From positions 62,001-126,000 of the forward strand of contig JAJDZZ010000026.1 in NCBI GenBank assembly GCA_022824405.1: a stretch of 64,000 nt of DNA, in the 5' to 3' direction. The DNA comes from Opitutales bacterium (GTDB lineage: Bacteria; Verrucomicrobiota; Verrucomicrobiia; Opitutales; UBA2995). Below the pieces are notes generated by a model. The model worked only from the letters and a program-made list of their open reading frames with translations, made no database searches and was not told the DNA's origin. Positions 7,686-58,279 of the stretch are shown here, piece by piece (the first letter of the stretch is position 1; every line of letters starts with the position of its first letter). The translations under genes and the position numbers were made by a program.

Positions 7686-7832
7686 CTACCCCCCCGCGGT
7701 GGCGAGAAAAATCCTGATCCCAATCCATAGCAGGGCTACGATAAGGATGGTATAGAGGGTGACCTTCATGACGAAGGGCCCGGATTTTTTTGGCTTGAGT
7801 TGCGAAAGCCGGGTTTTGTCTTCCAAATTCAT
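7686..7832 (-). CDS. Small single-pass membrane protein, 48 aa
   Basis: Reading the minus strand from the ATG at 7832 gives MNLEDKTRLSQLKPKKSG, then a hydrophobic helix (VTLYTILIVALLWIGIRIFL), then ATAGG and TAG. An in-frame ATG at 7862 would add ten residues. The charged N-terminus and single helix look like a genuine small membrane protein, positioned between the helicase and glycosyltransferase genes on the same strand. I know no family for it. Support is limited to frame, topology and position. Confidence 0.5.
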   Translation of the reverse strand: MNLEDKTRLSQLKPKKSGPFVMKVTLYTILIVALLWIGIRIFLATAGG

Positions 7833-7868
7833 CGCTTTTCTGCGGCTTGATCTCAGTGCCATTTAGGA

Positions 7869-32409: not shown

Positions 32410-32500
32410 CTTTTCTGCGGCTTGACCCCTTCCTCCGTTCAGTGCCGTGCTTCCTTCTCCCTTCTTCCTTTTCTAATTGGCGCCCCCGGGCGCCAATTAG
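32410..32500. repeat. Repeat cluster after lpxA, with 12-bp stem palindrome (copy D)
   Basis: CTAATTGGCGCC (32473-32484) pairs perfectly with GGCGCCAATTAG (32489-32500) across four bases. This is the symmetric form of the GGCGCC/AATTAG module. Upstream, CTTTTCTGCGGCTTGA at 32410-32425 is identical to 7835-7850 and nearly matches the inner arm of the element at 57042-57281. The palindrome lies between the lpxA and DUF971 stops and may terminate both. Confidence 0.75.
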
Positions 32501-54494: not shown

Positions 54495-55506
54495 CAGTTC
54501 TTTCGTGGTTACCATTCTGGTGTTTTTGGTCGCGGCCTGCGGCTCACAGCCCGAGGAGGGATATTTCAAGGGCGATGCCATGGGGACTTTCTATACCATA
54601 GAATTCCGGAGTGAGAAAAAGGTTCCCACGCGAGATTTAAGGGGAGAAATTGAGGAATTACTGGACGCGTTCGATCAGCAGCTTTCCAATTGGCGCGAGG
54701 ACAGTTGGGTCAATCGATTCAACGCGGCTCCGGCAGATGAGTTCATTCCTGTACCCGATTACGCCTTTCAGGTTTTGAACCTGTGCCTCGAGCTGTTCGA
54801 ACGATCGGGCGGATTGCTCGACCCAACCCTGTCCCCATTGGTCGAACTTTGGGGATTTGGGACCAAACGCGGGTCTATCGTGCCCGATCAGGCTGCCATA
54901 GAAAAGGCCTTGAACAGTGTCGGATTCGATAAGCTGGCACTTTGTCCGGATCGGCGCGCCGTAATGAAGCGTCAGGCCGATCTCCAAATCAATTGCTCGG
55001 CCGTGGCCAAGGGTTATGCGGTCGATTTGATTTCCGCAATGCTGCAGAAACGGGGTGTTGACAATTTTATCGTTAACTTGGGGGGCGAAATTGCCGCCCG
55101 AGGAACCCGCATGGATGGAGTTCCTTGGACGGTTGGAGTGAATCGTCCGGATGCAAAGGGCCATGGAAAGGAATTGGCCAGGGTAATCGAACTGTATAAT
55201 CGCAGTCTGGCCACCAGCGGGCATTCCCAAAGGACCTTCCTTTTCGGAGGTCAACGCTACTCCCATATTTTAAATGCAAAAACGGGGTGGCCCGTTAAGA
55301 CCGACATTGCCAGCGCCACCGTGCTGGCATCCAGTTGCGCCTTGGCGGACGGCCTGGCTACCCTTGCCCTGATACTCGATGAGGACAAGATGGCTGAGCT
55401 TCTCGAATTTTATGATGGTGTGGAAGTCTTCCGAACGAAATGGGCCGCGGAGGACTTGGCATTAAACTATGGAAACCCTCAATACTCAAAAAATCAGAAT
55501 CCATGA
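54451..55506 (+). CDS. apbE: FAD:protein FMN transferase (ApbE lipoprotein)
   Basis: The product is 351 aa from the GTG at 54451, which gives a short signal ending in the lipobox LVAAC; the open frame continues to 54376. ApbE attaches FMN to Thr/Ser of exported redox proteins. Family marks are GDAMGTFYTIEF, DGVPWTVGVNRPD, NCSAVAKGYAVD, ATSGHSQR, HILNAKTGWPV and SATVLASSCALADGLATLAL, with the Mg-binding Asp/Thr region intact. It overlaps the flavinylation-motif gene by 44 bases and the sulfatase gene by 4 (ATGA), so the three form one operon. A neighbouring target is therefore likely. Confidence 0.93.
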   Translation: MNSLKKYWCESKGLSSSFVVTILVFLVAACGSQPEEGYFKGDAMGTFYTIEFRSEKKVPTRDLRGEIEELLDAFDQQLSNWREDSWVNRFNAAPADEFIPVPDYAFQVLNLCLELFERSGGLLDPTLSPLVELWGFGTKRGSIVPDQAAIEKALNSVGFDKLALCPDRRAVMKRQADLQINCSAVAKGYAVDLISAMLQKRGVDNFIVNLGGEIAARGTRMDGVPWTVGVNRPDAKGHGKELARVIELYNRSLATSGHSQRTFLFGGQRYSHILNAKTGWPVKTDIASATVLASSCALADGLATLALILDEDKMAELLEFYDGVEVFRTKWAAEDLALNYGNPQYSKNQNP

Positions 55507-57038
55507 TGCGCAGAACAAGGCTTCTTCAAAATTTGGCTATCGCCCTTGCCATTACCTTCACGGGCCAGCTATTTGGACAAAACGACCCAGCTTCCTCCGC
55601 CCGAAACCAAAGCGACACTGAGGAAAGTCGTCCCAATATCCTCTGGTTGGTTATCGACGACATGGGCTGCGAATTTTCCTGCTACGGAGAGGAGGTCATT
55701 GAAACCCCCAATATCGATCGACTTGCCAGGGAAGGTATTCGCTTTACCAACGCCTTTTTGACCTCCCCGGTGTGTTCCACGGCCCGGTCCTCCCTGATTA
55801 CGGGGATGTATCAAACCACAATTGGCGCTCACAACCACCAAAGCGGTCGGGGGAAAAGGAAAATTCACCTTCCGGAAAGGGTAATTCCCATCCCCCATCT
55901 GTTTCAGGAAGCGGGTTATTACACCGCCAACGGAAACCATCCCAAAAGGAGGGAAGACCTGGGCAAAACGGATTACAATTTTCAATGGGAGGCGTCGATG
56001 TATGACGCGCCCTATTATAATGGAAGAGGCGTCGATCAACCCTTCTTTGCCCAGCTTCAACTATTGGGGGGCAAGCATCGACATCCGGAATCCTGGGGGA
56101 ATGGAGGAGCCAAAAGGCTTCTGGGGTGGGTGGTTGATGCCGATAAAGTGAAGCTCCCGCCTTATTACCCCAGAGATCCCATCATACTGGACGACTGGGC
56201 CCAGTACCTGGATACGGTCCGTTACACGGATAAACTGGTGGGTGAGATCCTCCAAAACCTGGAGACTGAAGGCCTCCTTGATGACACGATTATCATTCTG
56301 TTTGCCGACAACGGTATCAGCCATGCTCGCGGCAAGCAGTTCGTTTACGATGAGGGAATCCGAACCCCTTTGATTATCCGCGGACCGGGAATTGAAAGGG
56401 GCCTCGTTCGGCATGATCCGGTGGAACACATCGACCTGGCCTCGACTTCCCTGGCTCTGGCCGGTCTGCCCGTTCCCGATTGGATGCAGGGGGACGACAT
56501 TTTGGCCAAGGATTACAGACCCAAGGAAGCGGTATTTGCGGCCAGAGACCGCTGTGGGGAAACGGTGGACATGACGCGTGCCGTCCGCACCAACAAGTAT
56601 AAGTACATCCGCAACTTTTTCCCGGATCGCCCGCACCTTCAACCGACCAATTACAAGGATTCAAAACCCATATTGATTCGGTTGCGCGAATTGCACGCGG
56701 AAGGAAAGTTGAATGAGCTTCAGGAGAAACTTCTATTTTCGCCTCAGCGGCCGGTAGAAGAACTCTATGATGTCCAGTCGGACCCCTACGAAACCGTTAA
56801 TTTGGCCGACCATCCGGATTTCGAGGGGGTTTTAAAGTCAATGCGACAGCGCCTGAAATCCTGGATGAAGCATACGAATGATCCCGGCCCCGAATCTCCC
56901 GAAGTTTACGCCGTGGAAATGGAATACCAGATCGGGAGAAACCAACGAAATCCCCAAGCTTACGCAGCGGTGAAAAGAAACGTGGATACCTATAACCGTT
57001 GGGCTAAGGAACGGCCCTATATTCCATTGGCAGACTGA
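55503..57038 (+). CDS. Secreted arylsulfatase-type sulfatase
   Basis: The product is 511 aa from the ATG at 55503, coupled to apbE by ATGA. A signal peptide (LAIALAITFTGQLFGQ) predicts export. The metal site has D52-D53 in LWLVIDDMG, and the formylglycine site reads C91-S-T-A-R-S-S, a CxAxR variant of the usual CxPxR. Later ADNG with GKQFVYDEGIRTPLI completes the S1-family pattern. It would remove sulfate esters from a sugar; no anaerobic or FGE maturase gene is in the window. The stop codon lies within the 11-bp duplication that flanks the MITE-like element downstream. Confidence 0.92.
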   Translation: MMRRTRLLQNLAIALAITFTGQLFGQNDPASSARNQSDTEESRPNILWLVIDDMGCEFSCYGEEVIETPNIDRLAREGIRFTNAFLTSPVCSTARSSLITGMYQTTIGAHNHQSGRGKRKIHLPERVIPIPHLFQEAGYYTANGNHPKRREDLGKTDYNFQWEASMYDAPYYNGRGVDQPFFAQLQLLGGKHRHPESWGNGGAKRLLGWVVDADKVKLPPYYPRDPIILDDWAQYLDTVRYTDKLVGEILQNLETEGLLDDTIIILFADNGISHARGKQFVYDEGIRTPLIIRGPGIERGLVRHDPVEHIDLASTSLALAGLPVPDWMQGDDILAKDYRPKEAVFAARDRCGETVDMTRAVRTNKYKYIRNFFPDRPHLQPTNYKDSKPILIRLRELHAEGKLNELQEKLLFSPQRPVEELYDVQSDPYETVNLADHPDFEGVLKSMRQRLKSWMKHTNDPGPESPEVYAVEMEYQIGRNQRNPQAYAAVKRNVDTYNRWAKERPYIPLAD

Positions 57039-57292
57039 CCCGAATGGCGCTTAGTTAAGCGTGTTTGTAGAGGAATTTGCTATGGACGCCAGTCGGGATC
57101 AAGCCGCAAAAAAGTGATGCCTTTTGGAGAAATAGGGTCAGGCCTTGAAAACTGTATTCCGTTGCACTTCATACACTTTTGCAAGGCAACCGACCCTGAA
57201 AGGCATAACTTTTTACGTCTTGACCCCTTCCTTCTCCGAGATGATTGAATATTCCAAACCCCGCTTAACTGAGCGGCATTCCAGACTGACCC
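57031..57292. mobile_element. 240-bp MITE-like inverted-repeat element with 11-bp direct repeats
   Basis: The element runs from 57042 to 57281. Its ends, GAATGGCGCTTAGTTAAGCG and, on the other strand, GAATGCCGCTCAGTTAAGCG, are terminal inverted repeats with two mismatches in 20. The similarity continues inward for about 100 bases per arm (GGGATCAAGCCGCAAAAAAG at 57095-57114 versus GGGGTCAAGACGTAAAAAG on the other strand from 57227), leaving a loop of about 35 bases. CAGACTGACCC occurs immediately outside both ends (57031-57041 and 57282-57292), a target-site duplication. There is no coding capacity. The terminal palindrome also recalls sequences near REP-associated transposases, so the mobilising enzyme is open. 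It fills the 293-base gap between the sulfatase and porin genes. Confidence 0.8.
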
Positions 57293-57331: not shown

Positions 57332-58279
57332 CTAATAGAAGTATTTCAGGCTCAGAGAAATCCCCCAGAAGTTCAAATTCTCCGCTGAAATCTCATAACG
57401 GACGGGCAGATTGCCTCCCGGTTCTCCCGGAGGTCCGACCGTAGATCCGTGGCCCCTCAACGGCTTCCACTCGTTGTCGCCGTCTTGGAAATTTTCCAGG
57501 GCATCCCCATAGCGCAATTTAATCCCTACATGAAACCCTTTGCTGAGAGCGTAATCCAGACCTGCCAGCATCTGATAACCCATCAAATTGTCGGACAGTA
57601 TCTCGTTGGCCAAGGACGCCGTGCCGGCCGCGTCGGGGTTTCGTCCCAGTCTTATCAGTTCGTTCCTATCGTTTGTCCTTATGGATGCCGCCGAATAATC
57701 TATCGTCGTATCCGTCAGGCTGACCCCAACCCCCAGAAAGGGTGTCACCTTCGGCATTTTCGCAAGGTGAAAGTCATAGTAGAAGTTTGCAAAAAAGCTA
57801 TTTGCGCGAAAGTCACTGATTTTTTCGCTTCGTTCGACAAACTCCTGCTGTTTAGGGTCGCCAATTACCAATAGAGGTAAACGTTCCCCGCTTTGCGCTC
57901 GGAGGAAGTACTCGGTTTCGATGCGAAAGTTCCGGAAGGCATAGCCGAGATGGGCTCCTCCAAAAAATCCGGAGCCGAGATCGAATCGATTCGGACTTCC
58001 CGGCAAGGCCGTGGGGTTGCATTGGTCCAGCGGGTAGGGCACGTTGGTTCCATCCTCGAAAACGAACCCTTCCAACCATTGATCGCAGTTGGTCGGAATG
58101 CCGATGTTGGTGCGGGTGGACTCGAGATCGCCCGGTAGTGACACTCCTACATCTGTGCCGAAATAGAATCCGCGACGGGCGTCGCTTTGGATTTCGGAAC
58201 CCGCGGAGGTTAAATTCGGCAGCAGCATAAATGTTGCTAAAATCCCCGAAATAAAATCACATGTCTTCTTAATCCTCAC
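57332..58279 (-). CDS. Outer-membrane beta-barrel protein (opacity/porin-like)
   Basis: The product is 315 aa. A signal peptide (ISGILATFMLLPNLTSAGS) is followed by amphipathic strands typical of an 8- to 10-stranded barrel: RGFYFGTDVGVSLPG, FFGGAHLGYAFRNFRIETEY, VTPFLGVGVSLTDTTIDY, KGFHVGIKLRYGD. The chain ends LSLKYFY with a terminal aromatic. A loop holds two cysteines (NCDQWLEG and DQCNP) that could form a disulfide. It may be a small outer-membrane adhesin, channel or structural protein. It is divergent from the next gene and lies beside the mobile element. Confidence 0.8.
   Translation of the reverse strand: MRIKKTCDFISGILATFMLLPNLTSAGSEIQSDARRGFYFGTDVGVSLPGDLESTRTNIGIPTNCDQWLEGFVFEDGTNVPYPLDQCNPTALPGSPNRFDLGSGFFGGAHLGYAFRNFRIETEYFLRAQSGERLPLLVIGDPKQQEFVERSEKISDFRANSFFANFYYDFHLAKMPKVTPFLGVGVSLTDTTIDYSAASIRTNDRNELIRLGRNPDAAGTASLANEILSDNLMGYQMLAGLDYALSKGFHVGIKLRYGDALENFQDGDNEWKPLRGHGSTVGPPGEPGGNLPVRYEISAENLNFWGISLSLKYFY

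Follow-up and report, generated by a model that had tools for sequence, protein, structure and literature searches.

Members of the IS4 subgroup are insertion sequences of about 1.4–1.65 kb, recognised by the end signature -AATR--------WTW---- and by repeats of 10–13 bp (PMC2266710, Table 1). Insertion sequences that target REPs have been reported, among them the IS4-family ISRm22, which inserts into palindromic extragenic repeats (PMC1525189); that autonomous element, assigned to IS4Sa (PMC2266710), reportedly has repeats of 6 bp. Palindromic repeats have been described in several forms: the terminal repeats of TIRYTs carry the tip motif GGGGWSAS (PMC3733652), RAYT subclass 2.1 is listed with the protein motifs NHYH and YIHLNP (PMC6006769), and BIMEs and other REP mosaics are made up of short palindromic units arranged in many orders between genes (PMC2817692). 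The known IS200/IS605 and RAYT transposases do not make target duplications of the kind described below (PMC2817692).

We examined a 240-bp non-coding element that abuts a sulfatase gene within a 64,000-nucleotide stretch of Opitutales DNA; "the window" refers to the whole of that stretch. The element resembles the IS4 subgroup, and E. coli IS4 itself, in its end signature, in duplications within the 10–13-bp range, and in 14–16 of 20 end bases; unlike the subgroup it is 240 bp long and without a transposase gene, prefers GGGTCARNCCT targets, and carries a palindromic repeat. With ISRm22 it shares the IS4 family and insertion into palindromic extragenic repeats, but it is a MITE with 11-bp repeats and itself contains a palindromic extragenic repeat. 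That inner unit is the only part to which the likeness to TIRYT and RAYT subclass 2.1 repeats extends: it has GGGG(T)(C)A tips, is palindromic, and is dispersed singly and in clusters without duplications, whereas the units here are longer and combined as mosaics. As in BIMEs and REP mosaics, short palindromic units stand in many orders between genes, although here they have no GT[AG]G head and are bounded by GGGGTCA. The element is of an already known kind; the unusual part is the reciprocal nesting of a DDE-type element with an apparently HUH-type one. The composite nature of the element, the target rule and the recurrent insertions at stop codons were all missing from the first-pass annotation of this DNA.

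The 240-bp element, its copies and its IS4 relatives

The coordinates of the features are collected in Table 1. The first-pass annotation had described inverted-repeat ends, long pairing arms and 11-bp direct repeats on either side, and each of these was confirmed. The element ends match in inverted orientation at 84% over 25 nt, and the two 20-bp terminal inverted repeats (TIRs) differ at two positions. Folding of the region as a single DNA strand gave -57.3 kcal/mol, compared with -29.5 kcal/mol (sd 3.8) for shuffled sequences (z = -7.4), so the extended arm pairing is real. The 11-bp repeats are exact, and their sequence is present exactly twice in the window, at these two positions only. 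No ORF of 80 aa or longer was found inside the 240 bp, a search of Rfam with the element returned zero family matches, and no terminator-like site was found at the element. The reported absence of a transposase from the window is in keeping with a genome-wide profile search, none of whose Y1_Tnp or DDE_Tnp_1 matches falls there.

Table 1. Positions of the element, its parts and the neighbouring genes (window coordinates)
Feature	Position	Strand	Basis or remark
IS4-subgroup MITE, 240 bp (supported assignment)	57042..57281	.	TIRs, target-site duplication, dispersed copies; second copy (L002) 98% identical
Left TIR GAATGGCGCTTAGTTAAGCG	57042..57061	+	Fits IS4-subgroup end signature; 14/20 bases equal both ends of E. 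coli IS4
Right TIR GAATGCCGCTCAGTTAAGCG	57262..57281	-	16/20 bases equal both ends of E. coli IS4
Left 11-bp duplication copy CAGACTGACCC (reverse complement GGGTCAGTCTG)	57031..57041	+	Exact direct repeat; reversed, fits target consensus GGGTCARNCCT
Right 11-bp duplication copy	57282..57292	+	Exact repeat of CAGACTGACCC
Sulfatase gene	55440..57038	+	ORF (start codon chosen by the ORF tool, uncertain); Pfam Sulfatase 6e-40; homologues stop at this place to within a few codons
Convergent downstream gene, outer-membrane-beta-barrel-like (read from translation)	57332..58279	-	ORF; 87% identical DNA in congener G001
Inner palindromic repeat lying within the MITE, GTCGGGATCA...TGACCCCTTCCT; tip consensus GGGGTCA	about 57092..57232	.	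Occurs without the shell
Core of inner repeat, module M3, itself palindromic GGGTCAGGCCTTG...CAAGGCAACCGACCC	57135..57196	.	Module annotation
Inner-repeat fragment (M2 arm)	7819..7852	-	82% over 34 nt; decayed, without MITE ends
Inner-repeat fragment (M4 arm + tip)	32412..32434	+	87% over 23 nt; decayed, without MITE ends

The sulfatase frame ends with I-P-L-A-D followed by TGA at 57036–57038, within the left copy of the duplication, as had been proposed. Because its homologues end at about the same place, the gene is without visible damage, in keeping with the earlier statement that it was left unbroken. An uninserted 3' end with one copy of the 11-mer would read ...CCATTGGCAGACTGACCCAATTGTCC. 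In the sister genome (G001) a contig end truncates the sulfatase, so that the empty site at this locus is out of view; the upstream neighbour of the convergent gene also differs between G001 and this genome.

A search for copies elsewhere yielded 54 matches, partial or whole, in the element's own genome (G000, 3.39 Mb) and 15 in G001, the sole congener searched; at E ≤ 0.001 there was no match in a further 51 genomes from the family and order. Many copies stand at contig ends, as expected since repeats break assemblies. The best other copy, L002, aligned over query positions 9–251, that is, over the entire 240-bp element. A scan of the two congeners for both full TIRs recovered five complete elements, four of which are flanked by exact repeats of 10–12 bp that differ in sequence: 11 bp at the sulfatase copy (L001, Table 1), 11 bp at L002 (GGGTCAAGCCT), 12 bp at L042 in G001 (CATCACTCCCCC), and 10 bp at L043 in G001 (GGGGTAATGT). 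The fifth, L039, has both TIRs and no duplication, and a short form of 53 bp (L027) has GGGTCAAGCCT on both of its flanks. Repeats of similar length and differing sequence argue for duplication of the target rather than for a conserved tip motif, and we therefore read the 11-bp repeats, as did the first-pass annotation, as a true target-site duplication.

Both element ends fit the IS4-subgroup signature and the four duplications (11, 11, 12 and 10 bp) lie inside the range of that subgroup; the E. coli IS4 ends used for the comparison in Table 1 were taken beside insG in NZ_CP023820. Across the phylum the TIR pattern was found in 34 of 388 genomes, with control matches almost nil, and seven further genomes hold MITE-sized pairs of TIRs (93–261 bp) with exact 10–12-bp repeats. 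When IS4 genes in other genomes were searched for with the E. coli IS4 transposase, six genomes (L196, L197, L199, L201, L205 and L210) proved to have insertion sequences of 1.5–1.9 kb that end in TIRs of this kind and are flanked by 10–11-bp repeats. The four proteins tested (L196, L199, L201 and L210) scored 180–207 bits to NF033592 (cut-off 115), and all four have the YREK motif Y..R...E......K. The suggested identity as a MITE thus gained support from the TIRs, the dispersed copies and the complete IS4 elements that share the TIR elsewhere in the phylum, and assignment of the 240-bp element to the IS4 subgroup is supported by these sequence features. Autonomous relatives, the parent type that the first-pass annotation had pointed to, are present in those other genomes; within the element's own genome, assembled in 92 contigs, no IS4 transposase gene with such TIRs was found, and the two DDE_Tnp_1 genes there were rejected as parents, as no such TIR lies beside either. 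Both of the parent types it had named were relevant, DDE (IS4) fitting the outer element and REP-associated Y1 ends resembling the inner part.

The inner palindromic repeat and its mosaic

The inner repeat occurs without the MITE shell at no fewer than a dozen loci, with constant boundaries (query 62–202), and its M3 core occurs alone at L026 and elsewhere in other combinations. Flanking repeats were absent from the seven standalone copies tested (at most two matching bases), and orthologous G001 sites lack the inner repeat at L016, L017 and L021. Its tips read GGGGTCA...TGACCCC with A, G or T as the next base among the copies, so that the last position of the TIRYT motif GGGGWSAS is not always G or C. 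The boundaries end in GGGGTCA, with no GTAG or GTGG head; the inner unit thus lacks the GT[AG]G foot tetranucleotide of a classical GTAG REP or BIME. Pieces of the inner arm at 7835 and 32410 had been offered as hints of older copies; CTTTTCTGCGGCTTGA is indeed exact at both (five sites with three or fewer mismatches, against 0.66 expected), but what lies there is broken pieces of the inner repeat, and the reading as earlier MITE copies does not hold. The inner unit is REP-like and separately dispersed, and was probably moved by an HUH route. At L017 (G000 contig C85), compared with L083 (G001 contig C384), another repeat insertion lies where a gene ends: the sequence in G001 is CGCCGTTGAGGGC, and an inner-type repeat splits this TGA in G000 and may supply a new stop.

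The element's own genome has one RAYT gene (L032, also L077; contig C22, 26046–27062), flanked on each side by a hairpin of about 120 bp whose 33-bp arms, GGGGTCAAACGTAGAAAATAGAATTTCCC, are near-perfect; NHYH and YIHLNP motifs were read from its translation. The flanking hairpins, GGGGTCAAACGTAGAAAATAG, are similar to the inner unit and not identical to it. Among 30 RAYT loci from the phylum the majority end in (A)AGGGGTCA inverted repeats, and the similarity of tips does not single out the gene of this genome as the cognate of the inner unit. A Y1_Tnp search of G001, which carries the repeat and has 15 matches to the 240-bp element, found none, an uncertain absence in an assembly of about 390 contigs. 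L110, from another Verrucomicrobia MAG and the sole locus with RAYT relatives in named genome contigs, has a RAYT 77% identical to that of L032 and flanked by the same GGGGTCAAACGTAGAA ends. At the RAYT loci L136, L137 and L139 of other genomes the genes are flanked by AAAGGGGTCA tips in tandem array (for example GGGGTCAGAAAGGGGTCAAGAAAGGGGTCAGG), which gives the impression of repeated addition of tips.

At least seven modules recur in varied orders across loci, for example M1-M2-M3-M4-M5 at the sulfatase element, M1-M6 at L027, M7-M1 (reversed) at L059, and M2-M3-M2 (reversed) at L020. Module M6 is a 60-bp palindromic repeat, GGGTCAAGCCTTGAATCGGTTGACTCC...GGCATGACCCC, with about 19 copies in G000 (L057, L060–L074 and others), mostly solitary and with constant borders (GGAGGAAG and GACG). 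The insertions at L002 and L027 are at the identical base of M6, so that the MITE can insert into the tips of GGGTCA repeats. The G001 copies L039, L042 and L043 have the same inner unit within the same shell, and the composite is therefore probably older than the split of the two species. The MITE and the GGGTCA-tipped repeat families nest in each other. At one intergenic site shared by the two congeners (L004 on G000 contig C79; L087 on G001 contig C259), the MITE composite is only in G000; G001 has there an unrelated 128-bp palindromic element, CCCGCATGTCTCACAAA...TTTGTGGGACATGCGGG, and such repeats lie near many other copies.

Target sequence and stop codons

For 59 ends from the MITE and IS lineage, once oriented, the adjoining 11 bp fit GGGTCARNCCT. 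The GGG served to orient the ends and the evidence lies in positions 4–11 only, where the counts were T 41, C 42, A 40, G or A 52, any base, C 36, C 37 and T 31 of 59 ends that are not all independent, some being the two sides of one insertion. AAG precedes many of the targets, as it does in RAYT tips. Reversed, a GGGTCA-type target reads ...TGACCC, and in G000 five ends abut TGACCC. At three of them the TGA is the stop of what is plausibly a real gene, coding for the sulfatase, for a TPR/SH3-like protein (L013) or for a protein like glycoside hydrolases (L053), the latter two functions being readings of translations. One other TGACCC, of 41 in the window, terminates a frame of at least 150 codons. 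These stop-codon counts are small, and selection against insertions within genes contributes to them.

Origin of the composite element

We propose that an IS4-type DDE transposase acted in trans to move a non-autonomous element of 240 bp; since its own genome is without a parent gene, that transposase would now be lost, foreign or unassembled. Insertion would have been into a GGGTCA-type target whose other strand is the sulfatase stop followed by CCC (CAGAC-TGA-CCC), and duplication of the 11 bp would have let the sulfatase keep its stop. The inner repeat, with GGGGTCA tips similar to the ends of RAYT/TIRYT (Y1, HUH) transposase genes, probably arrived by its own single-strand route and would now be carried along. 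Taken as a whole, this account of an IS4-subgroup MITE moved in trans, a target at the sulfatase stop and a separate nested inner repeat is, in our judgement, very probably right.

The whole 240 bp could instead be a RAYT/TIRYT-type (HUH, Y1) repeat or a BIME-like mosaic, with the 11-bp repeats being conserved TGACCC tips, one of them inverted. GGGTCA/TGACCC is the motif found at RAYT gene ends, the RAYT gene of this genome sits between hairpins with such tips, and modules are combined as mosaics at many loci. Complete copies are nonetheless flanked by exact duplications of unrelated sequence (e.g., those of L042 and L043), the outer TIR also encloses true IS4 transposase genes, and duplications are not made by the known transposases of this class; on the first two of these grounds the reading was rejected for the element as a whole, for which we hold it unlikely. 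It is largely refuted for the outer element and is the best account of the inner unit.

That the composite arose by recombination between repeats, the insertion being a product of gene conversion or of assembly rather than of transposition, seems very unlikely: many copies do lie at contig ends and modules are recombined in many orders, but the sulfatase copy has exact 11-bp repeats and sits in the interior of a contig of 229 kb, and conversion of flanks would not yield duplications that differ in sequence. Least credible is a host regulatory hairpin, either a bidirectional terminator or an mRNA stabiliser, with repeats arising by chance. The location between convergent genes and the strong folding would suit it, against which stand the dozens of dispersed copies, the target duplications, and the lack of an Rfam match or a terminator-like site at the element. 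A secondary effect of the element upon transcript ends is possible.

The IS4-subgroup MITE at the sulfatase gene shows how insertion of a mobile element at a stop codon can be harmless, the duplicated target restoring the stop. It is also a clear example of mutual nesting between a DDE-type MITE and a palindromic repeat that is apparently of HUH type. Sites of presence and absence between the congeners, together with the autonomous IS4 relatives, make the GGGTCARNCCT rule directly testable. We give somewhat less than an even chance to the broader proposal that a phylum-wide IS4-type lineage of MITEs and insertion sequences has become specialised for GGGTCA tips of RAYT/TIRYT repeats while bearing one such repeat of its own, with stop codons, since the reversed target reads TGA-CCC, serving as harmless landing sites that are restored by the duplication; if true, two unrelated transposition systems, DDE and HUH, would supply each other's insertion sites.
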